The translations under genes were made by a program, and so were the position numbers. From a virus: a stretch of DNA of 25,188 nt. The notes beneath the pieces were generated by a model. That model was given only the letters and a program-made list of their open reading frames with translations. It searched no databases and had not been told where the DNA came from. Position 1 is the first letter of the stretch, and the number at the start of each line of letters is the position of its first letter. The stretch is from IMG/VR virus record IMGVR_UViG_3300042876_000182, positions 1-25,188 of that record, one strand, 5' to 3'. Below are positions 37 through 19,532 of the stretch, piece after piece.

Positions 37-345
37 ATGGCTATCAAACCCAACGATTGTGTAATCAAAATCGAGGACCTGGTCGTTGGGTCTGATACTG
101 TCAGAGACTGGGATGGTCGCCCAAAAACAGTTCCAGTGTATGAATCATACTGGACAAACTTTTTACAACACGTAAAGGACTCTACTGATTGGAAGGCGGG
201 TGGCTGGAATGCATACGATAAAAACTTTGAACAACAACTAGCAAAGTTCAATGCAATCTACAAACAAACCAAGAAGTATGACGAACGTTATGTCAAATTC
301 AAGTCACACCAAGACTTAACATTTTTTGTATTGAGGTGGGCATAA
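37..345 (+). CDS. Small phage protein of the C-terminal LRW family
   Basis: The 102-residue product has no assignable function. It is rich in Trp, Tyr and Lys and ends in the pattern F-K-S-H-Q-D-L-T-F-F-V-L-R-W-A, which recurs at the ends of the proteins at 6496, 6993 and 7463, so I place it in a local paralogous family. ATG 37 is preferred over the adjacent GTG 34 because AAGGAAC at 22-28 is well placed as a ribosome binding site. The codons for Leu-Arg-Trp contain GAGGTG (333-338), which serves the next gene, whose ATG overlaps this stop as TAATG. Coding is well supported; function is unknown. Confidence 0.75.
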   Translation: MAIKPNDCVIKIEDLVVGSDTVRDWDGRPKTVPVYESYWTNFLQHVKDSTDWKAGGWNAYDKNFEQQLAKFNAIYKQTKKYDERYVKFKSHQDLTFFVLRWA

Positions 346-452
346 TGTACATTACAAACAAATACGATTCAATTAGACTGCCCTATAGTGAAGAACTATT
401 AGAGTGGCTGATTGAAACATATCCTTTCTCAAAATATGTGGTGATAGAATGA
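345..452 (+). CDS. 35-residue hypothetical protein
   Basis: A short open frame fills the otherwise empty space between two good genes. Its ATG shares a base with the preceding TAA, and its TGA overlaps the next ATG (ATGA at 449-452). GAGGTG at 333-338 lies 6 nt before the ATG. The acidic, aromatic product carries the stretch S-E-E-L-L-E-W-L-I-E-T-Y. No domain is recognisable. The perfect coupling on both sides is the main evidence that it is translated. Confidence 0.6.
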   Translation: MYITNKYDSIRLPYSEELLEWLIETYPFSKYVVIE

Positions 453-664
453 ACGAACGAATTAAAGAACTTAGTAAGCAGGCTGAAATCTATGCTCTTA
501 CTTTAGTGGGTCGTGAGGACGATTATGTTGACGTATTTGAACAAAAGTTCGCCGAGTTGATTGTGAAGGAATGTGCCAAAGAAGCAGCATACTGGTGGCC
601 AGCGGACTATTACGGAGCGAAAACCGTTGAAGATCGAATACTGCAACATTTCGGAGTCGAATAA
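449..664 (+). CDS. Small phage protein beginning MNERIKEL
   Basis: This 71-residue acidic protein resembles a small family that I recall as common in large phages: it opens MNERI-x-EL, has a central F-A-E-L-I-V-K-E-C helix and ends in a D-R-I-x-x-H-F-G-V-E tail. Family function is unknown to me. A more distant relative appears to lie at 12812 (M-N-K-E-I, then K-F-A-E-L-L-L, then F-G-I). The ATG overlaps the previous stop (ATGA) and the TAA overlaps the next ATG (TAATG), so it sits in a translationally coupled string. Confidence 0.75.
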   Translation: MNERIKELSKQAEIYALTLVGREDDYVDVFEQKFAELIVKECAKEAAYWWPADYYGAKTVEDRILQHFGVE

Positions 665-951
665 TGGCATTACGTAGTGCATGGGCTGTAGTTGAAACCG
701 ACTACACAAATAAGATATTTGTAATCGAAGACATTGCCAACAAGACTGGCGGCACAACTATTACTAACGATGCTGAAAATGTGCTAAGATATGTTTTTGA
801 CCATTTTGACAGGAGTTGGAGAACAGTCTACAAAGACACCGATAACGAATGGTGGGAAATATATATGCAAGCAGACGGCTTATGGCAGAGTGATTTTAAA
901 GTAGGGTTCAAACCTTGGAATGGCCTTGCTTGGGATATTTTACAGAGGTAA
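664..951 (+). CDS. Hypothetical protein, 95 aa
   Basis: The 95-residue soluble protein is strikingly rich in Trp and Asp. No family or catalytic motif is recognised and no membrane segment is visible. Its start shares a base with the preceding TAA. Its last codons (CAG AGG TAA) contain AGAGGT at 944-949, which is the ribosome binding site of the next gene at 954. This is the same economy as in the LRW genes, although the protein is not obviously related to them. Confidence 0.7.
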   Translation: MALRSAWAVVETDYTNKIFVIEDIANKTGGTTITNDAENVLRYVFDHFDRSWRTVYKDTDNEWWEIYMQADGLWQSDFKVGFKPWNGLAWDILQR

Positions 952-953
952 AT

Positions 954-1301
954 ATGAGATTAATGTTAGGTACAAAAGACAATCCAAGTCTATTGGTCGA
1001 TGTTCGACAAGAGTTTTCACCAACTCATTTTGACTTTTGGGTAGTCAACGGTTGCTGGGAAGGTACGTACACAAACGGACATGTCACTGTATGGGACTGC
1101 CCTTCGGGTGACTTTTCTAGTCTTGACCAAGTTGAAATTCTAACAGACAATCAGGATCGGTTGCGGACTACTGGCTGGTATAGTGATGTAGATAGAGGGT
1201 ACCAAGCGGTGTTTGATAACTTCCACAACCCCAACTATATTGCACCTAAGCCTGAGAAGGTTGATCTACCCGCAGACTGGGATGATGACATTGCGTTTTA
1301 A
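954..1301 (+). CDS. Hypothetical protein, 115 aa
   Basis: ATG 954 is chosen because AGAGGT ends 4 nt upstream; an earlier in-frame ATG at 915 lies inside the previous gene and lacks such a site. The product looks like an all-beta protein with alternating aromatic and polar residues (D-F-W-V-V-N-G-C-W-E-G-T-Y) and ends in an acidic D-W-D-D-D-I-A-F tail. No domain is recognised. It belongs to the same leading operon and is followed 8 nt later by the next start. Confidence 0.7.
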   Translation: MRLMLGTKDNPSLLVDVRQEFSPTHFDFWVVNGCWEGTYTNGHVTVWDCPSGDFSSLDQVEILTDNQDRLRTTGWYSDVDRGYQAVFDNFHNPNYIAPKPEKVDLPADWDDDIAF

Positions 1302-1309
1302 GGATTAAT

Positions 1310-1516
1310 ATGAAAGATGAATCACACTTGCCAGTGAGTGAACAAAGCCTAGTCTTCCGTCTCAGGAAGCGAGCCGAAATTCGCAGACAAATTCCAGGCC
1401 GATTGGCAGTAACAGAAGGTAAGCCAGACAAGATAGCAAACTTGTTAGACGAAGCTGCTAGCGAGATTGAACGACTACGACATGTACTATCCCATCTAGA
1501 AGACGATGGGAAATAA
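1310..1516 (+). CDS. Small conserved phage protein, coiled and basic
   Basis: This is a 68-residue, largely helical protein. The central segment L-R-K-R-A-E-I-R-R-Q-I is followed by K-P-D-K-I-A-N-L-L-D-E-A-A-S-E-I-E-R-L-R. I recognise this pattern from many large phages, where the family has no assigned role. The charge pattern suggests a short coiled coil, perhaps nucleic acid-associated (inference). AAGGA lies just upstream of the start. It is the last gene of the first operon; its stop is immediately followed by a strong intrinsic terminator. Confidence 0.75.
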   Translation: MKDESHLPVSEQSLVFRLRKRAEIRRQIPGRLAVTEGKPDKIANLLDEAASEIERLRHVLSHLEDDGK

Positions 1517-1541
1517 TAGGGACTCACGTCCCTATTTTTTT
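1515..1541 (+). terminator. Rho-independent terminator of the first operon
   Basis: Perfect 9-bp stem (AATAGGGAC, TCAC loop, GTCCCTATT) running into a T tract through 1541. It begins at the stop codon of the 1310 gene and closes the leading operon. Confidence 0.88.
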
Positions 1542-1569
1542 GGCTAAAAGTTAGAAATTATTATATACG

Positions 1570-1577
1570 TATAAATA
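1570..1577 (+). promoter_or_regulatory. Possible late-type promoter TATAAATA
   Basis: TATAAATA lies 8 nt before ATG 1586, just after a terminator. It matches the T4-type late promoter core (TATAAATA; NATAAATA in T4-like marine phages). An alternative sigma70 reading is TTGGCT (1540-1545) with TATATA (1562-1567) at a 16-nt spacing. I cannot tell which is used. Confidence 0.4.
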
Positions 1578-1585
1578 GCAGTATC

Positions 1586-2050
1586 ATGTTACACTTCATC
1601 AGAGACCTCACAGACAAACTTTTAGACTTCATCAAGGACGATCCTGTACGTCCTGAAATACCTACAGACTTCCGCGTAAGCGATGGTCGAATGGTCGCCG
1701 CACTTGTTAGTGAGGATAAACCTGATGCAATGGTATGTGTAAGTTTTCACGACTTTGTTCCTGCTGATACGAATGACTTGAAGACAACAGCACAAGTGCC
1801 AACAACGGCAGTGTTCTATACAATCTGGAGTTATAAAGCTGGCAAAGGACAAGAGTTGTTATTTCAAGCTGTGAAGGGCATCCAAGAACAGTACCCAAGC
1901 GTGACTCGATTTGTGACACTCAGTCCAAAGACAAACATGGCAAGACGTTTTCACTTGAAGAATGGAGCTATCATTTTCAGAGAAAACGGAGAGACTGTGA
2001 ATTACGAATACCCATCAAAACTCGAAACAGTAGAAGAATCCCAATCTTGA
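1586..2050 (+). CDS. GNAT-like acetyltransferase domain protein
   Basis: The 154-residue product looks like a GNAT-fold protein. Around residues 75-95 the strand V-F-Y-T-I-W-S is followed by K-A-G-K-G-Q-E-L-L, a plausible acetyl-CoA pyrophosphate loop (Q/R-x-x-G-x-G/A is the family rule). Residues 117-128, N-M-A-R-R-F-H-L-K-N-G-A, resemble the GNAT motif B end, where a side chain precedes a final G-A/F strand. The substrate is not predictable. The gene stands alone after a terminator and has no clear ribosome binding site. Its TGA stop lies inside the -35 box of the next promoter. A structural role with degenerate catalysis remains possible. Confidence 0.6.
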   Translation: MLHFIRDLTDKLLDFIKDDPVRPEIPTDFRVSDGRMVAALVSEDKPDAMVCVSFHDFVPADTNDLKTTAQVPTTAVFYTIWSYKAGKGQELLFQAVKGIQEQYPSVTRFVTLSPKTNMARRFHLKNGAIIFRENGETVNYEYPSKLETVEESQS

Positions 2051-2075
2051 CAATAAATCAATTTCGTGCTATACT
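2047..2075 (+). promoter_or_regulatory. sigma70-type promoter, leaderless geometry
   Basis: TTGACA (2047-2052), 17-nt spacer, TATACT (2070-2075). The -35 carries the extended TTGACAATAAAT block shared by other promoters here. The TGA inside the -35 is the stop of the preceding gene. The expected start of transcription (about 7 nt past the -10) coincides with ATG 2082. Confidence 0.85.
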
Positions 2076-2081
2076 GACAGC

Positions 2082-2177
2082 ATGAAATTCATTAAAGAAC
2101 TACTCCAAGCGACCGTCATAGCATTGCTATTTGGCGGTCCCGTTTTTTACTACTTACTGTTTCAAATGAAGGCTTGA
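2082..2177 (+). CDS. 31-residue membrane peptide
   Basis: The product starts M-K-F-I-K-E and then forms one hydrophobic segment (V-I-A-L-L-F-G-G-P-V-F-Y-Y-L-L-F) with a basic end, so it is predicted to be a single-pass membrane peptide. There is no Shine-Dalgarno, because the perfect promoter ends only 6 nt before the ATG and the mRNA would start at the AUG itself. The next gene starts 4 nt after this stop. Translation is inferred from the sensible membrane topology and the promoter position. Confidence 0.5.
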   Translation: MKFIKELLQATVIALLFGGPVFYYLLFQMKA

Positions 2178-2181
2178 GAAA

Positions 2182-2388
2182 ATGTATACTTTAATCTTCG
2201 TTTCTAACTTTCTGTTTCTTGGTACCTATGCTGACTTATATTCTTGTCAGAATGCTATCAGTGAAATCTACACTCAAAAAGCAAACCCTCCCGGTATGCG
2301 CTTGCCTGAACTGGAAGAAGGCATTAACATCACGATCAAAACGCAAAAGCAATTGCTTTGCATCCCTGTGAAAAAGAGCAAAGACTGA
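2182..2388 (+). CDS. Small protein with N-terminal hydrophobic segment
   Basis: The 68-residue product begins with a hydrophobic stretch (L-I-F-V-S-N-F-L-F-L-G-T-Y) that could be a signal anchor or part of a small domain. It has Cys near residues 22 and 60 and a lysine-rich end. No family is recognised. The ribosome binding site is weak (TTGAGAA). It lies 4 nt after the 31-residue membrane peptide and shares its promoter at 2047. Its stop codon lies inside the stem of the terminator that follows. Confidence 0.6.
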   Translation: MYTLIFVSNFLFLGTYADLYSCQNAISEIYTQKANPPGMRLPELEEGINITIKTQKQLLCIPVKKSKD

Positions 2389-2411
2389 GTACTTTAGTAC
2401 TACAGTTTTTT
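2385..2411 (+). terminator. Intrinsic terminator after the 2182 gene
   Basis: Stem CTG-AGTAC / GTACT-(A bulge)-CAG with a TTTA loop, followed by six T. It overlaps the TGA of the upstream gene and ends the two-gene unit led by the 2047 promoter. Confidence 0.7.
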
Positions 2412-2507
2412 GAAACAAAAGTATTCATTTTTGTTGTTCAGGGACGCTAGGACCGATTCTTTGTTCAGGACTAGCTACTGACTCACAAGAAAAGAATTGC
2501 CCAAAAT
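2412..2507. other. Gene-free spacer with a short direct repeat
   Basis: About 96 bases with no credible reading frame, lying between a terminator and a promoter. It contains TTGTTCAGG twice (from 2434 and from 2461), each followed by a variant of GAC/ACT and a CTAG tetramer. It could be an untranslated RNA or a protein binding site; nothing decides between these. Confidence 0.35.
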
Positions 2508-2536
2508 TTGACAATAAATGGGTTTGGTTGTATAAT
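2508..2536 (+). promoter_or_regulatory. Consensus sigma70 promoter, leaderless geometry
   Basis: TTGACA (2508-2513), 17-nt spacer and TATAAT (2531-2536) are all perfect matches. The block TTGACAATAAAT is shared with other promoters here. ATG 2543 falls exactly where transcription should start. Confidence 0.9.
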
Positions 2537-2542
2537 TCATGT

Positions 2543-2872
2543 ATGAACTCAAGAAAACGCCGCTCAGATCGTAACCAAGTGATTTACTTCATCCAAGATG
2601 TTGTAACACTTGAGTACTACATTGGTCTGACTGCTATGGAATTCAATGGCAACGTTTTCAAGACTCTTCGCCGTCGTATGCAAAAGCACATGCAACGAGC
2701 CCTCACTGAAAACAAAGACTGGGGTCTGAGTGTTGCATTGCGTACACGTGGTGCCGAGCGTTTCGTTTTCGGTAAGTTGGAAGTTGTGCGTGGCAAGAAA
2801 GAAGCTCACGCACGTGAGACACAATTGATTAACACATTGCAACCAGCATTGAACACATTTGGAGTCAAATAA
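2543..2872 (+). CDS. GIY-YIG superfamily nuclease-like protein
   Basis: The 109-residue protein is a compact GIY-YIG domain. V-I-Y at 13-15 and Y-I-G at 26-28 form the signature pair. R-R-R-x-x-K-H around 43-49 supplies the conserved Arg and Lys-His. The A-R-E-T-Q-L-I segment near residue 92 holds the expected metal-binding Glu, followed by P-A-L-N, typical of the family. Such stand-alone phage domains may act as homing or host-DNA-degrading nucleases; which applies here is unknown. ATG 2543 is chosen because an upstream in-frame TTG lies inside the promoter. There is no Shine-Dalgarno, and the mRNA is predicted to be leaderless. Confidence 0.8.
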   Translation: MNSRKRRSDRNQVIYFIQDVVTLEYYIGLTAMEFNGNVFKTLRRRMQKHMQRALTENKDWGLSVALRTRGAERFVFGKLEVVRGKKEAHARETQLINTLQPALNTFGVK

Positions 2873-3018
2873 TGACAACTTACCTAGTGGTCTACAAGTC
2901 TTATCAAAAGCCCGGATTAGAACATTTTGAGGTTCTTGCTGAAAACAAATATGATGCAAGAATGAAATTTCTAAAATCAAATATCAAATACGATTACATC
3001 ATCAAGGTGATTCTATGA
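2872..3018 (+). CDS. 48-residue hypothetical protein
   Basis: The ATG shares a base with the TAA of the GIY-YIG gene, and the TGA overlaps the next ATG (ATGA at 3015-3018), so it is coupled on both sides. The basic, Tyr-rich product (Y-L-V-V-Y-K-S-Y, then F-K/L-K-S-N-I-K-Y-D-Y) is reminiscent of a small alpha/beta domain but matches nothing I can name. A site for ribosome binding, GGAG, is present at 2861-2864. Confidence 0.65.
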   Translation: MTTYLVVYKSYQKPGLEHFEVLAENKYDARMKFLKSNIKYDYIIKVIL

Positions 3019-3212
3019 CCAAATTCGTACACATCGTCCAAGTCCACCCCGTATACAACGGTATTCTACAAACTCACAAGATCAAGCACGAAGTAGAATA
3101 CGATACAAAAAAAGATGCTGATGCGTATATTGAAACATTTAATGCTCAGTATACTGACCTGAGAGCAGTCTACTACGGCTGTGTCAACGATGAAACCGGA
3201 GAACTGGTATGA
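3015..3212 (+). CDS. Hypothetical protein, 65 aa
   Basis: This small soluble protein (V-H-I-V-Q-V-H-P-V-Y at the N-terminus, acidic E-T-G-E-L-V at the C-terminus) lies in the promoter-2508 operon and overlaps both neighbours by 4 nt. The alternation of short strands with the K-K-D-A-D-A-Y-I-E-T-F helix suggests an alpha/beta fold similar to the preceding 48-residue protein, perhaps an ancient duplicate (weak inference). No function can be given. Confidence 0.7.
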   Translation: MTKFVHIVQVHPVYNGILQTHKIKHEVEYDTKKDADAYIETFNAQYTDLRAVYYGCVNDETGELV

Positions 3213-3364
3213 TGAAACAACTATTAGACCTGCTGTACAAAAAGCAGAGTGAGATTTATGCTGACCCTGATGGCCGAGACGAGTTTGATTGCCTAGTGGG
3301 TTTAATTGAAGACGGCACAATCGACTCCTTTGAAGAACTTGCCAAATACGGAGTTGAAGAATGA
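3209..3364 (+). CDS. 51-residue acidic hypothetical protein
   Basis: Two consecutive ATGs (3209 and 3212) open a frame that ends in ATGA overlapping the next gene, filling the gap between two coupled genes. The product is mostly helical and acidic (D-P-D-G-R-D-E-F-D, then E-D-G-T-I-D-S-F-E-E-L-A-K-Y-G-V-E-E). The closing Y-G-V-E-E resembles the ends of other small phage proteins here. Either ATG could be the start; the first gives a 4-nt overlap with the preceding gene. Confidence 0.65.
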   Translation: MMKQLLDLLYKKQSEIYADPDGRDEFDCLVGLIEDGTIDSFEELAKYGVEE

Positions 3365-3600
3365 AAGATTTTCTAGGGCGTGAACTTGAACTCGGGGACA
3401 GTGTGATTGTTGTCGCTCCTGGTTATCGTCATTTTGTTCTTGCTAGAGTAATTCACTTTACTCCTAAACAAGTTCGTGTGTCGTTTATGAACACTTGGAA
3501 CCACAGTGGTGACGGTTACTACACTGAACTATTGCAAGGTCCCTCGCAACTTACAAAAGTTGACGGCCCTGATCTAACTATGTACCTTTTGAAAAAATGA
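3361..3600 (+). CDS. Small phage protein, paralogue of the 11109 gene
   Basis: The 79-residue protein opens with D-F-L-G-R-E-L-E-L-G-D-S-V, has the central core T-P-K-Q-V-R-V-x-x-M and ends G-P-D-L-T-M-Y-L-L-K-K. The gene at 11109 has the same three blocks (L-G-R-E, T-P-K-Q-V-R-V, G-P-E-L-T-M-H-L-L-K), so the two are paralogues about 8 kb apart. The beta-rich pattern with G-D-x-V followed by a V-R-V core suggests a small SH3-like barrel (inference). Coupled by ATGA on both sides. Confidence 0.75.
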   Translation: MKDFLGRELELGDSVIVVAPGYRHFVLARVIHFTPKQVRVSFMNTWNHSGDGYYTELLQGPSQLTKVDGPDLTMYLLKK

Positions 3601-3845
3601 AAATCAATCCCAAACTACAACTGAATATCGCCTTTTGGGCAGTCACTCTTCCGGTAGTTCCATTTGTGGTAATTATATTACTACTGTCAGTCGTCATCGG
3701 CACTATACCAGGCATCGGAAACAAAGTCTTGGACAAAGTAGAGCGACTAATAACAAAGTTCGCAGTTTGGCGTAACAACATTCCCTTCATCAAAAACGCC
3801 TACGATAAGGTACATTTGTTCGATTACATCAAAAATTCCAATTGA
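3597..3845 (+). CDS. Small membrane protein, 82 aa
   Basis: A strongly hydrophobic segment of about 30 residues (residues 10-40, including V-V-P-F-V-V-I-I-L-L-L-S-V-V-I-G) is followed by an amphipathic basic tail with K-V-L-D-K-V-E-R-L. One or two membrane passes are predicted. The protein is not recognised. Its ATG overlaps the previous stop, and its TGA is embedded in the -35 box of the promoter at 3842. Such small inner-membrane proteins are common in phage early regions. Confidence 0.7.
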   Translation: MKINPKLQLNIAFWAVTLPVVPFVVIILLLSVVIGTIPGIGNKVLDKVERLITKFAVWRNNIPFIKNAYDKVHLFDYIKNSN

Positions 3846-3870
3846 CAATAAATCGTTTTGGGCATATAAT
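3842..3870 (+). promoter_or_regulatory. Consensus sigma70 promoter
   Basis: TTGACA (3842-3847), 17-nt spacer, TATAAT (3865-3870). The upstream gene's TGA (3843-3845) is inside the -35. The last two -10 bases begin the 10-bp palindrome ATACATGTAT (3869-3878). About 42 bases are nearly identical to the promoter at 4269. Confidence 0.92.
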
Positions 3871-3900
3871 ACATGTATAGATTGATTAAAGGACAAGTAC

Positions 3901-4272
3901 ATGGCAAGTCTATTCGTTATCCGTGAAAAGAACACTGGCACATTCTGTACCAGTAGCAAGTTCAAACACTTCGAAGCAGACCTGCAGAAGGCTGCTATGT
4001 TCAATCAGCGTAAGAACGCAGAGACTGCCGCCCGTAAGATGTTTGCAGGTGCTGACAAAGGTCAAGTCAATCCCTACGGTGGCTGGTGCTGGAGAGTCTA
4101 TAATGAAGATGAAAGTATTCAAGATTTTCACCATGCACTACTGAATGAGTACATCGAGTTCCTCAAAGCCCACAGCGGCAACCATGCTGACTCGATACAG
4201 TATCTGCAAACAAAAGTACGCGAACAACGATGCGAAATGGAAGTTGTTGAGGTAAAGTTGACTTTGGCTTGA
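3901..4272 (+). CDS. Phage hypothetical protein beginning MASLFVIR
   Basis: The 123-residue protein starts M-A-S-L-F-V-I-R-E-K-N-T-G-T-F, a pattern I associate with small phage proteins that open with a beta hairpin. It continues with K-A-A-M-F-N-Q-R-K-N-A-E-T-A-A-R-K, in which a strand reading A-x-x-F is followed by a basic helix. The C-terminal half is a long helix. No role is known. It has its own consensus promoter, a 30-nt leader and AAAGGA as ribosome binding site. Its TGA is inside the next -35 box, making it a single-gene cassette. Confidence 0.75.
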   Translation: MASLFVIREKNTGTFCTSSKFKHFEADLQKAAMFNQRKNAETAARKMFAGADKGQVNPYGGWCWRVYNEDESIQDFHHALLNEYIEFLKAHSGNHADSIQYLQTKVREQRCEMEVVEVKLTLA

Positions 4273-4297
4273 CAATAAATCACTTTGGGCATATAAT
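4269..4297 (+). promoter_or_regulatory. Consensus sigma70 promoter
   Basis: TTGACA (4269-4274), 17-nt spacer, TATAAT (4292-4297), with the preceding gene's TGA (4270-4272) inside the -35 and ATACATGTAT at 4296-4305. It is nearly a copy of the promoter at 3842. Confidence 0.92.
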
Positions 4298-4328
4298 ACA
4301 TGTATAGATTGAAACAAAGGTCAATGAC

Positions 4329-4556
4329 ATGGAATATCAGTGCTTTTATTTGAACCCAGACTTCAAACTGGCTCATGATGATGACGCGGAAGTCTTGTTT
4401 GAAACTGACAACCTGGCCGAGGCGTGTACTTTCGTTTACAATCTGTTCAAACAAGAAAAGCGTGATATCGCAGTCTATCAGCCACGTAGTCAGGGCTATC
4501 GTGAAATCTATCAAAACAAACTCCGTGACAGTAAGGGTCGATTCGTTAAAGGTTGA
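4329..4556 (+). CDS. Hypothetical protein, 75 aa, basic tail
   Basis: This is a 75-residue protein with an acidic N-terminal half (H-D-D-D-A-E-V-L-F-E-T) and a very basic C-terminal tail ending D-S-K-G-R-F-V-K-G. The helix N-L-A-E-A-C-T-F-V-Y-N-L-F-K-Q is clear. No known domain. ATG 4329 is chosen over ATG 4324 (different frame) because AAAGGT lies 7 nt before it. It forms a one-gene cassette: its own promoter in front, and its TGA within the -35 of the promoter at 4553. Confidence 0.7.
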   Translation: MEYQCFYLNPDFKLAHDDDAEVLFETDNLAEACTFVYNLFKQEKRDIAVYQPRSQGYREIYQNKLRDSKGRFVKG

Positions 4557-4581
4557 CTTTAATTCAGTTTGGGCATATAAT
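4553..4581 (+). promoter_or_regulatory. sigma70 promoter
   Basis: TTGACT (4553-4558), 17-nt spacer, TATAAT (4576-4581). The TGA of the preceding gene (4554-4556) is in the -35. It shares the GTTTGGGCATATAAT segment with the two upstream promoters but lacks the ATACATGTAT palindrome. Confidence 0.9.
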
Positions 4582-4613
4582 AGATTCATAGACAGTAAAG
4601 AACAGGACTTGAA

Positions 4614-4817
4614 ATGAAACCCGAAACAATGTATTACATCGCATTTGGTACAGTCGTTGATTGGTTTGCCATCAGTGATTCCTACAAAGTGTATGCTGAT
4701 ACAGCGGATGGCGAGGCAGAACGATGCCGTGCTAACCGTAAGTCGCTCAAGTACAAGGCAAAGGCTATTGTTGGGCTTGATCGTGAAATGGATCGCTTGG
4801 TAAAGGAATACAAATGA
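4614..4817 (+). CDS. Hypothetical protein, 67 aa
   Basis: A 67-residue protein with an aromatic N-terminus (M-Y-Y-I-A-F-G-T-V-V-D-W-F) and a basic helical end (K-A-K-A-I-V-G-L-D-R-E-M-D-R-L-V-K-E-Y). The ribosome binding site AGGACT lies about 7 nt before ATG. It is the first gene of the long unit driven from the promoter at 4553 and is coupled to the next gene by ATGA. Function is unknown. Confidence 0.72.
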   Translation: MKPETMYYIAFGTVVDWFAISDSYKVYADTADGEAERCRANRKSLKYKAKAIVGLDREMDRLVKEYK

Positions 4818-5113
4818 ACATCCAAACCGTAGCAGAAAATCTGCGTAACACAATCGCCGGCAAGGAAGCATTGCTGGAAGAATACAAGAAGGCAAGTTTG
4901 ATTGCCGTTCGCAACGATACTCCTGACCGAGTAACTATCGGAGCAATGGCAGGATTCTTGTCTACCAACATTGACGAACTCAAGCGTATTCTCAAGGATG
5001 TGGAACAGTGTGCCAAGCAAGCATCCGATGACAGCTGGATCACTAACCCAGATCGCATGGGCGGTGGCGGTTGGACACAAGATGAACTTGATCCTAACAG
5101 AGGTTGGAAATAA
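4814..5113 (+). CDS. Conserved phage protein with SW-x-x-NPDRMGG tail
   Basis: The 99-residue, mainly helical protein contains F-L-S-T-N-I-D-E-L-K-R-I-L-K-D-V-E and ends with D-S-W-I-T-N-P-D-R-M-G-G. I recognise this combination from large phages, where no function has been assigned. The conserved N-P-D-R-M-G-G tail may be a binding segment (inference). It is coupled to the previous gene by ATGA and followed 11 nt later by the next gene with a strong ribosome binding site. Confidence 0.75.
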   Translation: MNIQTVAENLRNTIAGKEALLEEYKKASLIAVRNDTPDRVTIGAMAGFLSTNIDELKRILKDVEQCAKQASDDSWITNPDRMGGGGWTQDELDPNRGWK

Positions 5114-5124
5114 GGAGAAACAAA

Positions 5125-5421
5125 ATGCCCTGCATGAGTTATGATGATCGTCCCGACTACAGTGACCGGGAGTGGAAAAACAAAACTGACAAACTGGCTC
5201 GCATCGCCTGCAAGGCTATGACTGAGTTGGTTGAGCAAGGTAAAGCAGACTTTTTGATTCTCCGTGATGATGAAGTCCGTGACTGGTGGGAGGCTCACCA
5301 AGAAGCTGATCGCAAAGCACGTGAGGCACGTGAACGTAAAGCACATGATGCACAAGTTCGCAAAGAAGCACTGGCTAAACTGACACCAGAAGAAAAGAAA
5401 ATTCTTGGGATTAAAAAATGA
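5125..5421 (+). CDS. Conserved phage protein beginning MPCMSYD
   Basis: The 98-residue protein begins M-P-C-M-S-Y-D, has a helix with L-A-R-I-A-C-K-A-M, the segment D-D-E-V-R-D-W-W-E-A-H-Q-E-A-D and a basic coiled helix ending L-T-P-E-E-K-K-I-L-G-I. The pattern is familiar from several phage genomes without known function. ATG 5125 is preferred to an upstream TTG because AAGGAG lies 7 nt before it, the best ribosome binding site in this stretch. It is coupled to the next gene by ATGA. Confidence 0.78.
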   Translation: MPCMSYDDRPDYSDREWKNKTDKLARIACKAMTELVEQGKADFLILRDDEVRDWWEAHQEADRKAREARERKAHDAQVRKEALAKLTPEEKKILGIKK

Positions 5422-5762
5422 TTAACGCAAAAGAAGCCCGTGAGTTAGTTGAGCAAAGTGATACTGTCCTGAAAAACCGATTGGACTCCATCGAAGTATT
5501 GATTCAATCAGCAGCCTCTTTGGGCAAGCGTGAGGTATTACTGAAGGAATATCTCTATCATGCAGACTGGATGAAGGTTGAAAAGCAACCATTCTACGAA
5601 CCTGAGTTTACGCCTACACAGCGACTTGTCAAGGTTGAACTTGAGAAGTTGGGATTCACTGTAGATATTCACGGATACCCGATCACTATCGGTGGCGGGC
5701 TTGGTAGCATGGACGAAGAGCCTCGTGAAGGAACTAGCTATGCTATCAGGGTGAGGTGGTAA
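5418..5762 (+). CDS. Hypothetical phage protein, 114 aa
   Basis: The N-terminal helix M-I-N-A-K-E-A-R-E-L-V-E leads into a second helix (L-D-S-I-E-V-L-I-Q-S-A-A) and then a small alpha/beta part (L-E-K-L-G-F-T-V-D-I-H-G-Y-P, then G-G-G). This order is known to me from phage hypothetical proteins. It ends Y-A-I-R-V-R-W; the codons AGG GTG AGG TGG include GAGGTG (5753-5758), the ribosome binding site of the next gene. It does not otherwise show the E-K-D core of the LRW family. Confidence 0.72.
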   Translation: MINAKEARELVEQSDTVLKNRLDSIEVLIQSAASLGKREVLLKEYLYHADWMKVEKQPFYEPEFTPTQRLVKVELEKLGFTVDIHGYPITIGGGLGSMDEEPREGTSYAIRVRW

Positions 5763-5763
5763 T

Positions 5764-6087
5764 ATGGAATATAAACACATTGGTTGGTGTAAAGACGAAA
5801 AGACAAACAGCGATAAAGTCTGGGGTGTTATTCTACTAGCAGAAGATGTCGCCATCAGCGATGCTTGGCATTTTAAATCAAATAAGTATGTAACATTCTG
5901 GGGCCGTCGCGGTGCCAAACTACAGACAAAACTGTGGAATGGTACTGACTGGGATGCTCGGGAAATGTTTATGAAAAAACAAAACAAAGGCTACAATTCA
6001 GTTGAGAAAAATGAATTGGATGAAGTCTATCCTGAGTTTCAACAAGACTTAGAGAAGACTGCATTCTGGGCTACATTTAAGATTTAA
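5764..6087 (+). CDS. Hypothetical phage protein with WGRRGAKLQTK
   Basis: This 107-residue protein carries K-Y-V-T-F-W-G-R-R-G-A-K-L-Q-T-K near its centre, then a helical acidic end. The W-G-R plus strand-turn pattern superficially resembles WGR-type domains of poly(ADP-ribose) polymerases, but the remainder does not convince me. I have seen W-G-R-R-G-K-x-L-Q-T-K in proteins of other large phages. The start lies 5 nt after the GAGGTG provided by the upstream gene. Confidence 0.68.
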   Translation: MEYKHIGWCKDEKTNSDKVWGVILLAEDVAISDAWHFKSNKYVTFWGRRGAKLQTKLWNGTDWDAREMFMKKQNKGYNSVEKNELDEVYPEFQQDLEKTAFWATFKI

Positions 6088-6088
6088 T

Positions 6089-6295
6089 ATGCCTAGAGTT
6101 TTGAACAAAAGTATTTGGCCCTATCAGGTCTTCATTGAGAGGGGCGATATAAAAGAATTTGGCAAAAGGGTCCAGTGGTTGAAAGATAACTTGTATCACG
6201 GCGGCTACTATGAACCAAAGTGGTATGTCAACGGAGACACTTATTGTTTTCAAGACGAAAAAGAATACCTACATTTTTTATTGGTGTGGCAGTGA
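6089..6295 (+). CDS. LRW-family protein (variant LLVW end)
   Basis: The 68-residue protein is a minimal copy of the local family. The helix V-Q-W-L-K-D-N-L is followed by an aromatic loop (Y-Y-E-P-K-W-Y-V-N-G), then Y-C-F-Q-D-E-K-E-Y-L-H-F-L-L-V-W-Q at the C-terminus, matching the family pattern of Phe, two residues, E-K-D/E, then F-x-L-x-W. Here Arg is replaced by Val, the codons lack GAGG, and the next gene is not coupled. Its own start follows the previous TAA by one base. Confidence 0.72.
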   Translation: MPRVLNKSIWPYQVFIERGDIKEFGKRVQWLKDNLYHGGYYEPKWYVNGDTYCFQDEKEYLHFLLVWQ

Positions 6296-6301
6296 TAGAC
6301 A

Positions 6302-6499
6302 ATGAACGAAAAAATTAATACATGGAGAGCACTACAAGACTTGCCACCAGCAGTGTCAAGTTTTTGGTGCCGCTTTAACTGGCACACTTGGACTAAGTGG
6401 AGTGATCCTGTATCTAGTAGTTATTCATCATTCACCCGGCAAGATCGTTACTGCATCCATTGCAATAGCGTAGAAACAAAAAAGTGGCGATCATCATGA
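6302..6499 (+). CDS. Small zinc-ribbon-like protein
   Basis: The 65-residue protein has F-W-C-R-F-N-W-H-T-W-T-K-W and, 40 residues on, R-Y-C-I-H-C-N-S-V-E. C-x-x-C with an upstream Cys/His pair in W-C-x(4)-H-x-W is a pattern of small phage zinc-binding proteins. Zinc binding is plausible but not proven. The start lacks a good ribosome binding site. Its TGA overlaps ATG 6496 of the next gene. Confidence 0.65.
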   Translation: MNEKINTWRALQDLPPAVSSFWCRFNWHTWTKWSDPVSSSYSSFTRQDRYCIHCNSVETKKWRSS

Positions 6500-6993
6500 A
6501 TAGTTCACAAAGACGCAAAAGCAAAAGAGAATTCCCTCATGTGATTAAATTGTTACCAGACGCAGGAATGCGTTACTTTGAGCATGATGACAAGGTGATG
6601 ACTGCACGTAATTGGTGCAGTCGTAATTGCCGCAGTGGCTTTAGAGTTGACAGTAGCTGGGACCATGCTGAATTCAAATTCGCAACAGAAAAGGATGCGG
6701 TAATTTTCGCATTGAAGTGGCTATTAAGTTTAGATGTAAATTCGATGTACCCACATCAAGTCAATGTCAATTTAACAGTGAAACCCTACACGTTATTGTG
6801 TTCTAGTTCAGACAGTTTTGGTACAATGTGGTATGAAATTGAAGTCTGTGTAAATAGCTTACGGCGTTGGATTGAAGATCAACCAGAAGACTTGTGGTGT
6901 GATGGTACATATACATGGGGTCGTAAAACATCGGGTATACCTTACTTGGTACACGAATCACTATACACGTTCATAACATTGAGGTGGGAATAA
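6496..6993 (+). CDS. Tandem-duplicated LRW-family protein
   Basis: The 165 residues appear to hold two copies of the family domain. The first copy has R-N-W-C-S-R-N-C and F-K-F-A-T-E-K-D-A-V-I-F-A-L-K-W; the second has R-R-W-I-E-D-Q and ends F-I-T-L-R-W-E. Only the terminal copy has AGG for Arg; the internal one has Lys (AAG). GAGGTG at 6981-6986 then sits 6 nt before the next ATG. ATG 6496 (ATGA overlap) is preferred to GTG 6484. Function is unknown; the Trp/Cys-rich core suggests a compact fold. Confidence 0.75.
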   Translation: MNSSQRRKSKREFPHVIKLLPDAGMRYFEHDDKVMTARNWCSRNCRSGFRVDSSWDHAEFKFATEKDAVIFALKWLLSLDVNSMYPHQVNVNLTVKPYTLLCSSSDSFGTMWYEIEVCVNSLRRWIEDQPEDLWCDGTYTWGRKTSGIPYLVHESLYTFITLRWE

Positions 6994-7466
6994 TGGGTAT
7001 TATTAGAAACACAACAGATGGTATCTACCCTTACCAACAAGCTATGTATAATAAAATATCACAGGGTGGATTTAAAACGGGCGCAATGCAGATTATATCT
7101 TCTGGTCGACAGTCTGGCAAGAGTATGCTGAATGCTATTTACAATAATAACCTTTGCAAGGAGATTACATTGTCAGGTCAAGAGTATCTCCATTTAGTAG
7201 AACTGAAAATGGGTTTTGCTAATCTAGCCACAGACAGAATCAAACAGAGAAAAAAAGTGAAGCAATATAAATTTAGTCGTGCCAAATGGTATGAGGGCAA
7301 ATTTAACTGGCGCAAGTATGAAGAGGTACATAACTGGTGTGAGCAACACTTTGGCAAGCATCCCAAGAGACCTGATGCTTGGTCGCGCTGGAACCATATG
7401 TATGAAGATATGATTCTTTTCCGTGACGAAAAAGATTACATGTTGTTCGTGCTGAGGTGGTCATGA
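6993..7466 (+). CDS. Walker A-like segment fused to an LRW-family domain
   Basis: The 157-residue protein begins Y-P-Y-Q-Q-A-M and, after a glycine-rich turn, has I-I-S-S-G-R-Q-S-G-K-S-M-L at about residues 34-46. This resembles the G/S-R-Q-x-G-K-S/T Walker A variant of phage terminases and related P-loop ATPases. No Walker B acid strand is visible and the length is far below a complete ATPase. The C-terminus is a family domain: H-N-W-C-E-Q-H-F-G, a Trp-rich loop and F-R-D-E-K-D-Y-M-L-F-V-L-R-W-S. Arg-Trp codons give GAGGTG for the next gene. Confidence 0.72.
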   Translation: MGIIRNTTDGIYPYQQAMYNKISQGGFKTGAMQIISSGRQSGKSMLNAIYNNNLCKEITLSGQEYLHLVELKMGFANLATDRIKQRKKVKQYKFSRAKWYEGKFNWRKYEEVHNWCEQHFGKHPKRPDAWSRWNHMYEDMILFRDEKDYMLFVLRWS

Positions 7467-7711
7467 AGTATTGGAACAAACAACACAAACTACGAGAAAG
7501 GTGGTACAAGGTTGAATTACCCAAGACACTTCTTATAAATAGTGTGTTTCCATCCATCGATGGATGGTGGACCTGGTCCAAGTTCGACTCTCTTAAAAGA
7601 GAGTTGCAAATGATTGATAGTCCTGGAAAGTTTTATATGAGTGTCATGCACCGAGATGTTTATTTTGAGCGTCAACAAGACGCAGTTTATTTTAGTTTGA
7701 GGTATCTATGA
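7463..7711 (+). CDS. LRW-family protein containing a cluster of dyad repeats
   Basis: This 82-residue family member has a basic N-terminus (K-Q-H-K-L-R-E-R-W), the Trp segment G-W-W-T-W-S-K-F and the terminal Y-F-E-R-Q-Q-D-A-V-Y-F-S-L-R-Y-L. The DNA of its first half contains TATAAATA (7534-7541) and three perfect inverted repeats in a row (7550-7604). ATG 7463 is chosen over GTG 7457 for the ATGA coupling and the GAGGTG of the upstream gene. Its own end (TTG AGG TAT) gives GAGGT 4 nt before ATG 7708. Confidence 0.75.
   Translation: MKYWNKQHKLRERWYKVELPKTLLINSVFPSIDGWWTWSKFDSLKRELQMIDSPGKFYMSVMHRDVYFERQQDAVYFSLRYL
7550..7604. repeat. Three adjacent perfect inverted repeats inside a CDS
   Basis: Dyad 1 (7550-7567) is an 18-bp perfect palindrome with arms CCATCCATC and GATGGATGG. 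Dyad 2 (7568-7580) is TGGACC, one T, GGTCCA. Dyad 3 (7587-7604) is ACTCTCTT, AA, AAGAGAGT. In RNA they would form consecutive hairpins within the 7463 coding region. Confidence 0.85.
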
Positions 7712-16557: not shown

Positions 16558-16784
16558 TGAACGCATTCAATCACATGGTGTCGTTTTTAGATACGATGCC
16601 TAAAGTAGAGATAAGTAAACAAGATTATGAAGTCTTTTGCAAAGAGTATATCTTTGACCAACTACAAGGTAAAAGGTTTGGAAGAGCCTTTTGCGAAAGA
16701 TTCGACATTGAAGACACCGTAGTTAAATGCTTATTTGACGAAGATATCGCCCGAGAAATGATTGAAGAAAATTATATCCAATGA
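16557..16784 (+). CDS. Small conserved phage protein, 75 aa
   Basis: The 75-residue acidic helical protein has [25 protein letters not shown], a block familiar from proteins of T4-like aquatic phages, commonly next to the preceding 179-residue family. The pairing suggests linked function (inference). Coupled by TAATG upstream and ATGA downstream to the ferredoxin gene. Confidence 0.72.
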
Positions 16785-17110
16785 CACACTTAGTAACAGA
16801 AAATTGTATCCAATGTAAGTACACAGATTGCGTACAAGTTTGCCCTGTAGATTGCTTCTACGAAGGCCCCAACTTCCTAGTAATCAATCCAGATGAATGC
16901 ATTGACTGTGCAGTTTGTATCCCAGAATGCCCTGCAGGTGCAATCGTATCAGAAGATGATCTACCAGAAGATGAACGCAAGAAATGGTATGATATCAATG
17001 CACGATTGGCAGCAAGTTGGCCAACGATCACAAAACGCAAAGATCCACTACCTGATGCAGATCAGTGGAAAGACGTACCTAACAAACTTAGCAGCCTCAA
17101 AGAAGAATGA
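16781..17110 (+). CDS. fdxA: FdxA-type 7Fe ferredoxin
   Basis: The 109-residue protein has C9-x2-C12-x4-C17-x3-C21-P, then C25, and C40-x2-C43-x2-C46-x3-C50-P, with the family text [13 protein letters not shown] and [14 protein letters not shown]. By analogy with Azotobacter ferredoxin I it should hold a [3Fe-4S] and a [4Fe-4S] cluster and carry electrons in the cytoplasm. The C-terminal extension (K-K-D-P-L-P-D-A) is also typical. Length is normal and all ligands are present. The sequence looks host-derived; the redox partner is unknown. Coupled by ATGA to both neighbours, including the deaminase. Confidence 0.93.
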
Positions 17111-17646
17111 AACAAAAATATATTGACTACTACATGGATGTAGCACAGCGTACTGGTAAACTCAGTCACGCTATTCGTAGACAAGTTGGAGCAGTCATTG
17201 TTAAAGACAATAGAATTCTCAGTTATGGCTATAATGGTATGCCTACTGGCTGGCCCAACGATTGTGAATACAAAGAATACATGAGTCCGGATGCAGGCGG
17301 CTGGCTTAATCCCGACGAGATCGAAGAACGCTGGCCGTTTCAAGAGTGGGTGGATAAAGTCTCAGAAACAGGTGAGACCTGGGGCTATAATGCTCGTTAT
17401 CGCTTAGTCACTAAAGACGAAGTACTCCATGCTGAAAGTAACGCAATCGCTAAAGTGTCCGGCTCAACAGAATCTAGCGAAGATGCTACCATGTTCTGTA
17501 CGACTGCACCATGCATTCACTGTGCCAAGATGATTTTTCAGTCTGGCATTAAAAACGTTTTCTATCGAGATACCTACCGCGATAGTAACGGAGTAGACTT
17601 CTTGGAAAAGAGTGGGGTTAATGTTACCAAATACGAACAAAGTTGA
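17107..17646 (+). CDS. dCMP deaminase
   Basis: The 179-residue protein carries the zinc-dependent cytidine/deoxycytidylate deaminase motifs H108-A-E110 and P-C136-x-x-C139, with the N-terminal block [10 protein letters not shown] and Y-N-G-M-P-T-G expected of dCMP deaminases. An insert of about 50 residues lies between these (Trp and Glu-rich, residues 53-105), as in the T4-type enzymes, where a comparable insert is known. The product converts dCMP to dUMP for dTTP synthesis. It belongs to a nucleotide module with the MazG-like protein here and the nucleotidase at 23468. Confidence 0.93.
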
Positions 17647-17818
17647 AATCAGTTTAGGATACGGTGAGCTTACACCATTGATTCGATGGTGTGAGTCAAA
17701 CTGTTCTAATGAATGGGCTTATGAACAACTGTTCCCTGCAGGCAGGGATGCAGGGTTGTATGAGTTCTATTTTCAAAGTGAGAAAGACTTGGTAGCTTTT
17801 ACTATATGGAAAACATAA
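17621..17818 (+). CDS. Short LRW-family protein (variant TIWKT end)
   Basis: The 65-residue protein overlaps the deaminase by 26 nt. After a short lead it has L-I-R-W-C-E-S-N-C-S-N-E-W and ends Y-F-Q-S-E-K-D-L-V-A-F-T-I-W-K-T, the same spacing as in the LRW proteins at 6089-7711. Arg is replaced and the codons contain no GAGG; the next gene is not coupled. ATG 17621 follows GAGTGGGG, a plausible site; GTG 17612 is the alternative. A palindromic CCCTGC/GCAGGG run lies inside (17734-17755). Confidence 0.65.
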   Translation: MLPNTNKVEISLGYGELTPLIRWCESNCSNEWAYEQLFPAGRDAGLYEFYFQSEKDLVAFTIWKT

Positions 17819-17821
17819 CAT

Positions 17822-18067
17822 ATGAAATACTTTACATTTAGCCGAGAAGATAACAATTTTGACGATATCCTAAAGGATGTCAACTTAAAGAAACGCATCG
17901 ACTTTAAACTACGCTGGTACCAACATTTGATGATCGGTATGGTTGAAGATGATCGGACTAGCAGCTACATCACATTGAAGTATGGTGATGAGATGGTTAA
18001 TGAGATGGTAAAGGACTTTAGTCCTATACCCGGAGTAGACTACACTCCTAAACGAAAGATTGTTTAA
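17822..18067 (+). CDS. Conserved phage protein with SPIPGVDYTP end
   Basis: The 81-residue protein starts M-K-Y-F-T-F-S-R-E-D-N-N-F-D-D-I-L-K-D and ends K-D-F-S-P-I-P-G-V-D-Y-T-P-K-R-K. Both blocks are familiar to me from hypothetical proteins of T4-like aquatic phages. Function unknown. It is the last + strand gene of the operon and converges on the minus-strand peptidase; the two stop codons share the palindrome TTAA (18064-18067), so there is no room for a terminator between them. Confidence 0.78.
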   Translation: MKYFTFSREDNNFDDILKDVNLKKRIDFKLRWYQHLMIGMVEDDRTSSYITLKYGDEMVNEMVKDFSPIPGVDYTPKRKIV

Positions 18068-18801
18068 ATCTTAGCTAACAGAATAGCTTCGGGAATACGT
18101 GTCTTAGTATTCTTGCTTCCCAACAGGACTACGGTCCTGATTCCATTGATAGTGTTCAGCATCATAACGATGCAACCACCACTGCGATTGATAAACCCTG
18201 TCTTACTTACTAAAAATGAACGCAAACCTACTGCGGGATTTGTGTTGTGAAAGACTAGATTGTTTTTCTTGACTGGAACTTGAACTGATGGTTTATTGCT
18301 AGCTTCTACAATTTTAGGATACGTGCTTGCAGACATTACTAATTTGATTAAGTCTTCTGCGGTACTGACGTTCATTACGGTCAACCCTGTAGGATCGGCG
18401 AATCTTGTATTCATCATATCCAATTCGACTGCCTTACGATTCATTGCTGATATACATGCACTAAACCCACCGGGGTAGTATTCGCATATCAATCTAGCCG
18501 CTTGATTGTCTGACTTGACTATTGCTAGGTCAATCAATGTCTGTCGGTCATGTTCTTTGCCGTACATCTTAACTGGAATGACTTCTGTTAATGACTGACC
18601 TGCGTCTAGTACGACCATGACTGTCATTAACTTTGAGATACTAGCGATAGAACGGACATCAGTAGTATGAACACCTTCTAATATATTGCCCTTCTCATCG
18701 GCTACTAACCATGCTTTAGCAGTAACCGCAGGAGTAGCACCGCATCCTATTGCAGTGCATAGCACGGATGCTAATAGTGTTTTACGTAGATACTTAACCA
18801 T
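18064..18801 (-). CDS. Secreted S11-type D-Ala-D-Ala peptidase
   Basis: The 245-residue protein has a Sec signal peptide (M-V-K-Y-L-R-K plus a hydrophobic core, probable cut after A-K-A near residue 30; a lipobox at A-I-G-C is a weaker reading). The penicillin-binding active site is complete: S54-I-S-K57, S97-D-N99 and K200-T-G202, with F-A-D-P-T-G-L as in PBP7/8. It should cut D-Ala bonds of peptidoglycan in the periplasm, as carboxypeptidase or endopeptidase. ATG 18801 is chosen over an in-frame TTG at 18837 that lies in the promoter. It may aid cell-wall weakening late in infection or remodel the wall. Confidence 0.88.
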   Translation of the reverse strand: MVKYLRKTLLASVLCTAIGCGATPAVTAKAWLVADEKGNILEGVHTTDVRSIASISKLMTVMVVLDAGQSLTEVIPVKMYGKEHDRQTLIDLAIVKSDNQAARLICEYYPGGFSACISAMNRKAVELDMMNTRFADPTGLTVMNVSTAEDLIKLVMSASTYPKIVEASNKPSVQVPVKKNNLVFHNTNPAVGLRSFLVSKTGFINRSGGCIVMMLNTINGIRTVVLLGSKNTKTRIPEAILLAKI

Positions 18802-18807
18802 AAGTTT

Positions 18808-18837
18808 AATATAACAGATTAACTGATTTTTAGTCAA
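18808..18837 (-). promoter_or_regulatory. Minus-strand promoter of the D,D-peptidase
   Basis: Reading the minus strand: TTGACT (18837-18832), 18-nt spacer, TATATT (18813-18808). ATG 18801 follows the -10 by 6 nt, so this mRNA too would be leaderless, and no Shine-Dalgarno is visible. Confidence 0.6.
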
Positions 18838-18874: not shown

Positions 18875-19411
18875 TTAGAACCAAAGCCAGAGTGCTTGAC
18901 TCATCAGTATCATCGCTAACCCACCTACGTATAAACTTGCAGTGTACAATTTGTTGTTTACGGCTAAAATAGATGCTGATAATAGAACGATTGCGATTTG
19001 GAACAATGATCCAGCAAATGTATACCAAGGACTACGAGTCTTTGCTACGGCACGTTCATCTTCTAGTTTACGTGCTTTAGCCATCAACTCTTTCTTGCCT
19101 TCACCTGTCGCAGGATCACTTTCGTAACGTGCGATTTTCTTCTCTAGTATCTCAGCTTTCTTGGTATCCTTGCGAGAAACAGCATCGTCTAATGCCATTT
19201 CTGCTAGCGTACCTTTGATGCTCTTAGCTTGATAGAATGCCCATGTGTTGTTAGCTTCAATCGTGTTGTTCAGCACTTTTGAGCTATTGCCACCGGCCAT
19301 GTATGTATTGATTGCAAGCAACGCTGCGAAAACGACAATAACCCAGCCGGCTTTGTCTTTGATTAATGCCTCACGTTCCGAGCGTGATAGAGGTTTCTTT
19401 TCTTCTGCCAT
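18875..19411 (-). CDS. DUF4337-like membrane protein
   Basis: The 178-residue protein has a charged N-terminus, a membrane helix (about 22-42, G-W-V-I-V-V-F-A-A-L-L-A-I), the block E-A-N-N-T-W-A-F-Y-Q-A-K-S-I-K, a basic helical region, and two further membrane helices at 133-178 starting F-Q-I-A-I-V-L-L-S-A-S-I. The W-x-x-Y/F-Q-A-K-S-I-K and Q-I-A-I-V-L blocks are the marks of DUF4337, found in bacteria and phages, function unknown. AAAGGAG lies close upstream of the ATG. It is divergent from the secreted Asn-rich protein and precedes the D,D-peptidase on the same strand. Confidence 0.85.
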   Translation of the reverse strand: MAEEKKPLSRSEREALIKDKAGWVIVVFAALLAINTYMAGGNSSKVLNNTIEANNTWAFYQAKSIKGTLAEMALDDAVSRKDTKKAEILEKKIARYESDPATGEGKKELMAKARKLEDERAVAKTRSPWYTFAGSLFQIAIVLLSASILAVNNKLYTASLYVGGLAMILMSQALWLWF

Positions 19412-19468: not shown

Positions 19469-19497
19469 TTGATAAATATCAATGAGATATCAATCTC
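19469..19497. promoter_or_regulatory. Paired dyads in the divergent intergenic region
   Basis: TTGATA-AA-TATCAA (19469-19482) and GAGAT-ATCA-ATCTC (19484-19497) sit side by side, with ATATCAAT repeated 11 bp apart (19476 and 19487). GATAAATA (19471-19478), a possible late promoter core, is inside. The site could be an operator controlling the divergent DUF4337 and secreted-protein genes. Confidence 0.45.
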
Positions 19498-19532
19498 CTC
19501 TTCCAAATAAAAACAATAACAAAGGAAAGAAG

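Follow-up and report, generated by a model that had tools for sequence, protein, structure and literature searches.

Can the last codons of a viral gene be chosen for the ribosome that starts the next one? The question is raised by a stretch of 25,188 nucleotides (nt) of virus DNA, positions 1 to 25,188 of the IMG/VR record IMGVR_UViG_3300042876_000182 (hereafter the window), in which several genes close with codons for leucine, arginine and tryptophan (Leu-Arg-Trp) just before another start. The original prediction, made from the letters of the window, held that these codons double as the ribosome binding site of the following gene. It is very probable that the gene-end codons do serve in addition as the Shine-Dalgarno (SD) site of the downstream gene, and that the Arg codon AGG is chosen where a start is suitably spaced. 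At the level of the sequences, the codon bias, its dependence on spacing and the pairing potential are all evident.

AGG codons before starts in the window

The end codons were read straight from the sequence of this 25 kb record (Table 1). At five gene ends the GAGGT string finishes 7, 6, 7, 4 and 4 nt before the ATG at 345, 5764, 6993, 7463 and 7708, respectively, and stop and start overlap or abut at −1, +1, −1, −4 and −4 nt. The earlier description of five ends with AGG and GAGG(T) before the next start is thus confirmed, with a spacing of 4–7 nt, as is the overlap in four of the five, the fifth start (5764) lying at +1. Codon reading also agrees with it on the AAG of the internal copy in the gene at 6496 and on the ends at 6295 and 17818, which have no Arg. 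One assignment was wrong: the end at 5762 had been grouped with the motif-bearing family, but an iterative profile search seeded with this gene gathered 0 relatives from the same loci that yielded more than a thousand for each family seed (see below). Its RVRW end is an independent case.

The Arg codons of the whole window were counted on a corrected gene list. AGG accounts for 9 of the 10 Arg codons that end 3–10 nt before a start and for 16 of the 315 elsewhere (Fisher p 2e-10). The nine start-proximal AGG codons lie at 334, 946, 5754, 6982, 7455, 7700, 11099, 12802 and 13049, and five of them are in genes outside the motif family. Because four (946, 11099, 12802 and 13049) belong to ordinary genes, absent from the list in the original prediction, AGG before starts is a general rule in this genome which extends beyond the motif. 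The claim that AGG appears just where a start needs it holds in that the codon bias tracks coupling; the bias is not confined to the motif.

Arginine codon choice and coupling in sampled phage loci

For a wider comparison, IMG/VR was searched with DNA patterns in which the Arg codon was left open (MGN) and with two more in which both Arg and Trp were open. This gave 357 loci (3.1 Mb), which for two patterns came from among the matches listed, the pattern being independent of the Arg codon. The strict motif, [FWY]-x-[LIVMF]-[RK]-W-x-stop, was found at 1012 distinct gene ends. Coupling was assigned to copies with an ATG that begins between −4 and 0 relative to the stop and opens a frame of 30 codons or more; for the offset, within-contig and background analyses this range was widened to +3. 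Copies with no near start, or with a near ATG at +4 to +14 only, were taken as uncoupled. Dereplication used a threshold of 60% identity, computed on the last 36 residues.

The share of AGG among Arg codons is 443/625 (0.71) in coupled copies and 23/126 (0.18) in uncoupled ones (p 2e-28). After dereplication it is 271/360 (0.75) and 12/83 (0.14), an odds ratio of 18 (p 5e-25), whereas the background share inside long open reading frames (ORFs) is 0.087. The difference is present in every class of guanine-cytosine content and within contigs (Mantel-Haenszel odds ratio 10.7 in 75 informative contigs, permutation p 2e-4). When each uncoupled copy was paired with its nearest coupled relative of at least 30% identity, AGG occurred in the coupled copy only in 46 pairs and in the uncoupled copy only in 2 (p 8e-12); when at least 50% identity was demanded the numbers were 15 and 1. 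Equal use of AGG in the two classes, the outcome named at the outset as contrary to the claim, is thus not what is observed. Gene ends without the motif behave alike: with a close ATG, the AGG share is 0.53 at the third and 0.45 at the fourth codon before the stop, and uncoupled ends show about 0.13.

The bias depends on where the start lies. With the ATG at −4, −1, +1 and +3 from the stop, the AGG share is 0.67, 0.84, 0.32 and 0.12, respectively, a trend which follows SD spacing. At the preceding Leu, codons with a final G, which complete GAGG, are co-selected with AGG: they are found in 87% of the coupled copies that have AGG, compared with 57% of the coupled and 40% of the uncoupled copies that lack it. 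The longest match to the complement of the anti-SD sequence is 5.2 nt on average when the Arg codon is AGG, and 3.1 nt for the remaining Arg codons.

These gene ends would then carry two messages, the end of a protein helix (F-x-L-R-W) and a site on the messenger RNA. The codons xxG AGG TGG give GAGGTG, which is able to base-pair at the 3′ end of 16S ribosomal RNA and may serve as the SD site where a downstream ATG shares bases with the stop or directly adjoins it (ATGA, TAATG). As the Arg would be nearly fixed by the protein, the site would be obtained through the otherwise rare AGG together with a G-ending Leu codon, and selection would act where a start is suitably distant and not where it is absent. 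Ribosomes would presumably use the site, and coupling may proceed through termination-reinitiation or through initiation at a site opened by the upstream ribosome.

Several points weigh against this interpretation. The loci of two patterns were sampled as described above, and the gene starts rest on a simple ORF rule. Coupled copies with a conserved Arg-Trp and other Arg codons, the second contrary outcome named in advance, do occur, but as a minority only: AGA or CGN stands in 29% of the coupled copies with Arg. Moreover, the site is missing in all coupled Lys copies, so that AGG is favored without being required. In coupled relatives of 50–92% identity the motif Arg codon is identical in 0.57 of cases, compared with 0.58 for other Arg codons; the codon therefore turns over, and the bias is maintained with turnover. 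Finally, the AGG share follows the general SD use of a contig only weakly (Spearman 0.17, p 0.03). Internal copies provide a thin control, with 16 strict matches having at least 4 residues after Trp; internal matches at least 9 residues from the stop show AGG once only, in a match that is not motif-like, which agrees with the proposal and proves little. A looser count of internal copies was discarded, as an upstream F-K-F-R-Y segment fitted its pattern too.

An SD site embedded in the end of the upstream gene is a known kind of arrangement, reportedly described by Eyre-Walker in 1996. It is known as well that the upstream coding end can hold the SD site of the next gene with a biased codon choice (Palleja et al. 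2009, PMC2784483), and the present gene ends resemble those cases in both respects. Unlike them, they display a conserved motif across about a thousand sampled ends, coupled and uncoupled homologues that are directly comparable, and a small amino acid shift (Arg over Lys). In coupled pairs, intragenic SD sites before the downstream start raise reinitiation (Huber et al. 2019, PMC6728339; review PMC12548453). Removal of the intragenic site in five pairs of E. coli cut reinitiation by 60–90% in three and abolished it in a fourth, the range running from none to complete (PMC6728339). Because 29% of the coupled Arg copies do without AGG, the site would be helpful and not needed here, as in those pairs. 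The ATGA and TAATG overlaps with intragenic SD sites are common to both (PMC6728339, PMC12548453), a match of sequence layout. A further parallel is the fusellovirus SSV4, with its GGTGA overlap of stop and SD site (as described in PMC2784483): it too is a compact virus genome which reuses a gene end as an SD site, through the stop codon TGA, however, and not through the sense codons Leu-Arg-Trp. The double use is therefore of an already known kind, and the family offers an unusually large and well-controlled natural experiment, in which a shared, fixed Arg at ends with and without a start allows selection on the site to be measured apart from selection on the protein.

Protein constraint, descent and pausing

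A broader form of dual coding survives best among the alternatives. It states that the Leu-Arg-Trp motif itself is partly kept because it spells a ribosome binding site, which is possible but judged somewhat improbable. In the set for which neither Arg nor Trp was required (dereplicated at 60%), Arg is found in 0.78 of coupled and 0.61 of uncoupled copies (p 0.02). The ratio of Arg to Lys is 360:51 when coupled and 83:32 when uncoupled (odds ratio 2.7, p 1e-4), and the Arg excess persists within contigs (p 4e-4) and between matched relatives (22:9, p 0.03). The last residue also shifts toward A-ending codons, which the ATGA overlap favors, Ser occupying 0.37 of coupled and 0.18 of uncoupled ends. 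On the other hand, Trp is equally common with and without coupling (0.93 and 0.92), an argument for conservation of the motif by the protein; Arg or Lys holds the majority in both classes, and the motif lies at a predicted helix end, so that the protein alone suffices. It appears from these comparisons that the protein keeps the motif, while the RNA sets the codon and modestly tilts Arg over Lys. Of the suggestion, already made for the window, that the motif owes part of its conservation to an RNA function, this tilt is the part which remains. Tentatively, the ribosome-binding need of the downstream gene may feed back on the protein through Arg over Lys and an A-ending last codon, the conserved peptide being then in part an RNA signal.

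Copies with Lys show a codon preference of their own, AAG:AAA being 48:36 in coupled and 7:34 in uncoupled copies of the 357 loci (p 2e-5). AAG is no better as an SD match, and these codons are perhaps recently descended from AGG.

Selection on the AGG codon would not be needed if a few AGG-bearing ancestors had been duplicated in tandem, AGG and coupling travelling together by descent. The family genes do stand in tandem, another member following 506 of the 709 coupled copies in the 357 loci, and the lack of raised codon identity in close coupled relatives can be counted on the same side. However, dereplication at 80%, 60% and 50% identity strengthens the bias instead of removing it, a change of coupling between relatives goes with a change of codon (46:2), and unrelated genes of the same loci and of the window are biased as well. 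Inheritance is largely refuted by the matched relatives and is considered very improbable. Hardly credible is the view that AGG acts, without 16S pairing, as a rare codon that delays the ribosome near the stop and aids reinitiation: AGG is indeed rare in the background, but CGG (the rarest Arg codon there; 13/625 coupled, 7/126 uncoupled) and CGA (20/625 and 23/126) are also little used and show no enrichment in coupled copies, and both the co-selection of Leu codons that make GAGG and the tie to start spacing speak for SD pairing.

The protein family and other features of the window

The less expected part of the finding is the unannotated family that carries the motif. Iterative profile searches of the fetched loci were seeded with the six window genes at 37, 6089, 6496, 6993, 7463 and 17621; as each converges on 1042–1414 proteins, the six form one family. 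Its core comprises about 65 residues, with a C-terminus of roughly F-x-x-E-x-D-A-x-x-F-x-L-R-W-x-stop. Three residues follow the Leu in 250 of 270 strict matches, and the motif nearly always finishes one residue short of the stop. The abundance of the family shows in the sampled uncultivated-phage loci, which contain 1012 strict copies in 3.1 Mb, and the highest copy number is 20 in one 14 kb locus.

When 53 diverse members were searched against Pfam-A and PHROGs (cut-off E<0.01), each library gave one isolated weak match and no model was common to two members. A tblastn search of isolated phages with four members found no convincing relative; the lone match, to a gp41 primase-helicase (E 0.01; one phage in two records), was set aside as not convincing. 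No relative was found in bacterial genomes with one window protein as query.

An AlphaFold2 model, built on a 115-row alignment headed by the gene at 6089, predicts a beta-alpha-beta-beta-alpha (E-H-E-E-H) arrangement with a mean predicted local distance difference test score (pLDDT) of 82. The last predicted helix (residues 57–67) has the L-x-W positions of the motif at its end. Foldseek retrieved similar predicted proteins from uncultured Caudovirales phages, all uncharacterised, and weak structural matches to proteins of the jumbo phages PA5oct and Atu_ph07; against the PDB it gave no match at E<1. A second PDB comparison gave middling matches, the best (Z 5.2, to a designed protein) being nearly tied with many others; no confident match to a solved structure emerged, small ferredoxin-like domains included. 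Judging from these searches, this is a small, widespread and unannotated phage protein family, and the analysis exposes it as a very abundant one of uncultivated phages without a Pfam or PHROG model.

In the gene at 6993–7466, the N-terminal third contains the segment IISSGRQSGKS, which resembles a Walker A loop and is fused to the motif domain. The segment is kept in the relative at L344:3197-3673.

Table 1. Gene ends, putative Shine-Dalgarno sites and motif copies of the window.
Position	Strand	Feature	End codons	Next start	Remarks
37..345	+	Motif-family gene, ends FVLRWA	TTG AGG TGG GCA TAA	ATG 345 (−1; TAATG overlap)	Profile search gathers 1191 relatives
333..338	+	GAGGTG, putative SD site		ATG 345	In Leu-Arg-Trp codons TTG AGG TGG
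345..452	+	Small ORF, 35 aa			Start inside TAATG overlap; overlaps gene at 449; sequence read
5418..5762	+	Gene ending RVRW	ATC AGG GTG AGG TGG TAA	ATG 5764 (+1; gap 1)	phrog_5321 relative; outside motif family
5753..5758	+	GAGGTG, putative SD site		ATG 5764	In end of non-family gene
6089..6295	+	Motif-family gene		6 nt after stop	Val (GTG) at Arg place; used for structure model
6496..6993	+	Motif-family gene, internal and C-terminal motif copies	TTG AGG TGG GAA TAA	ATG 6993 (−1)	Profile search
6712..6720	+	Internal motif copy, TTG AAG TGG (Leu-Lys-Trp)			In gene at 6496; without downstream start
6981..6986	+	GAGGTG, putative SD site		ATG 6993	
6993..7466	+	Motif-family gene, ends FVLRWS	CTG AGG TGG TCA TGA	ATG 7463 (−4)	Profile search; 56% identity to L344 relative
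7454..7459	+	GAGGTG, putative SD site		ATG 7463	
7463..7711	+	Motif-family gene, ends FSLRYL	TTG AGG TAT CTA TGA	ATG 7708 (−4)	Profile search
7699..7703	+	GAGGT, putative SD site		ATG 7708	
17621..17818	+	Motif-family gene without Arg, ends FTIWKT	ACT ATA TGG AAA ACA TAA	3 nt after stop	Profile search

Other features of the window lie outside this subject. The gene at 5764–6087 encodes a WGRRGAKLQTK stretch which resembles a WGR domain; Pfam gave no match, and seven relatives occur in the sampled loci. Unusual phage cargo is represented by a D-alanyl-D-alanine carboxypeptidase (18064–18837, minus strand; Peptidase_S11, E 3e-32) and a DUF4337 protein (18875–19411, minus strand; E 3e-31). A bacterial-type 4Fe-4S ferredoxin gene (Fer4 and DUF3470) lies at 16781–17110, and a low-complexity protein rich in Asn, Thr and Ser, with NNNN and SGTMTYNNNN-like repeats, is encoded at 19482–20711. 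Perfect or near-perfect sigma-70 promoters (TTGACA-17-TATAAT) recur before short genes at 2047–4596 and also at 10925 and 11783, and five 44-nt copies resemble TTGACAATAAATCGTTTTGGGCATATAATACATGTATAGATTGA.

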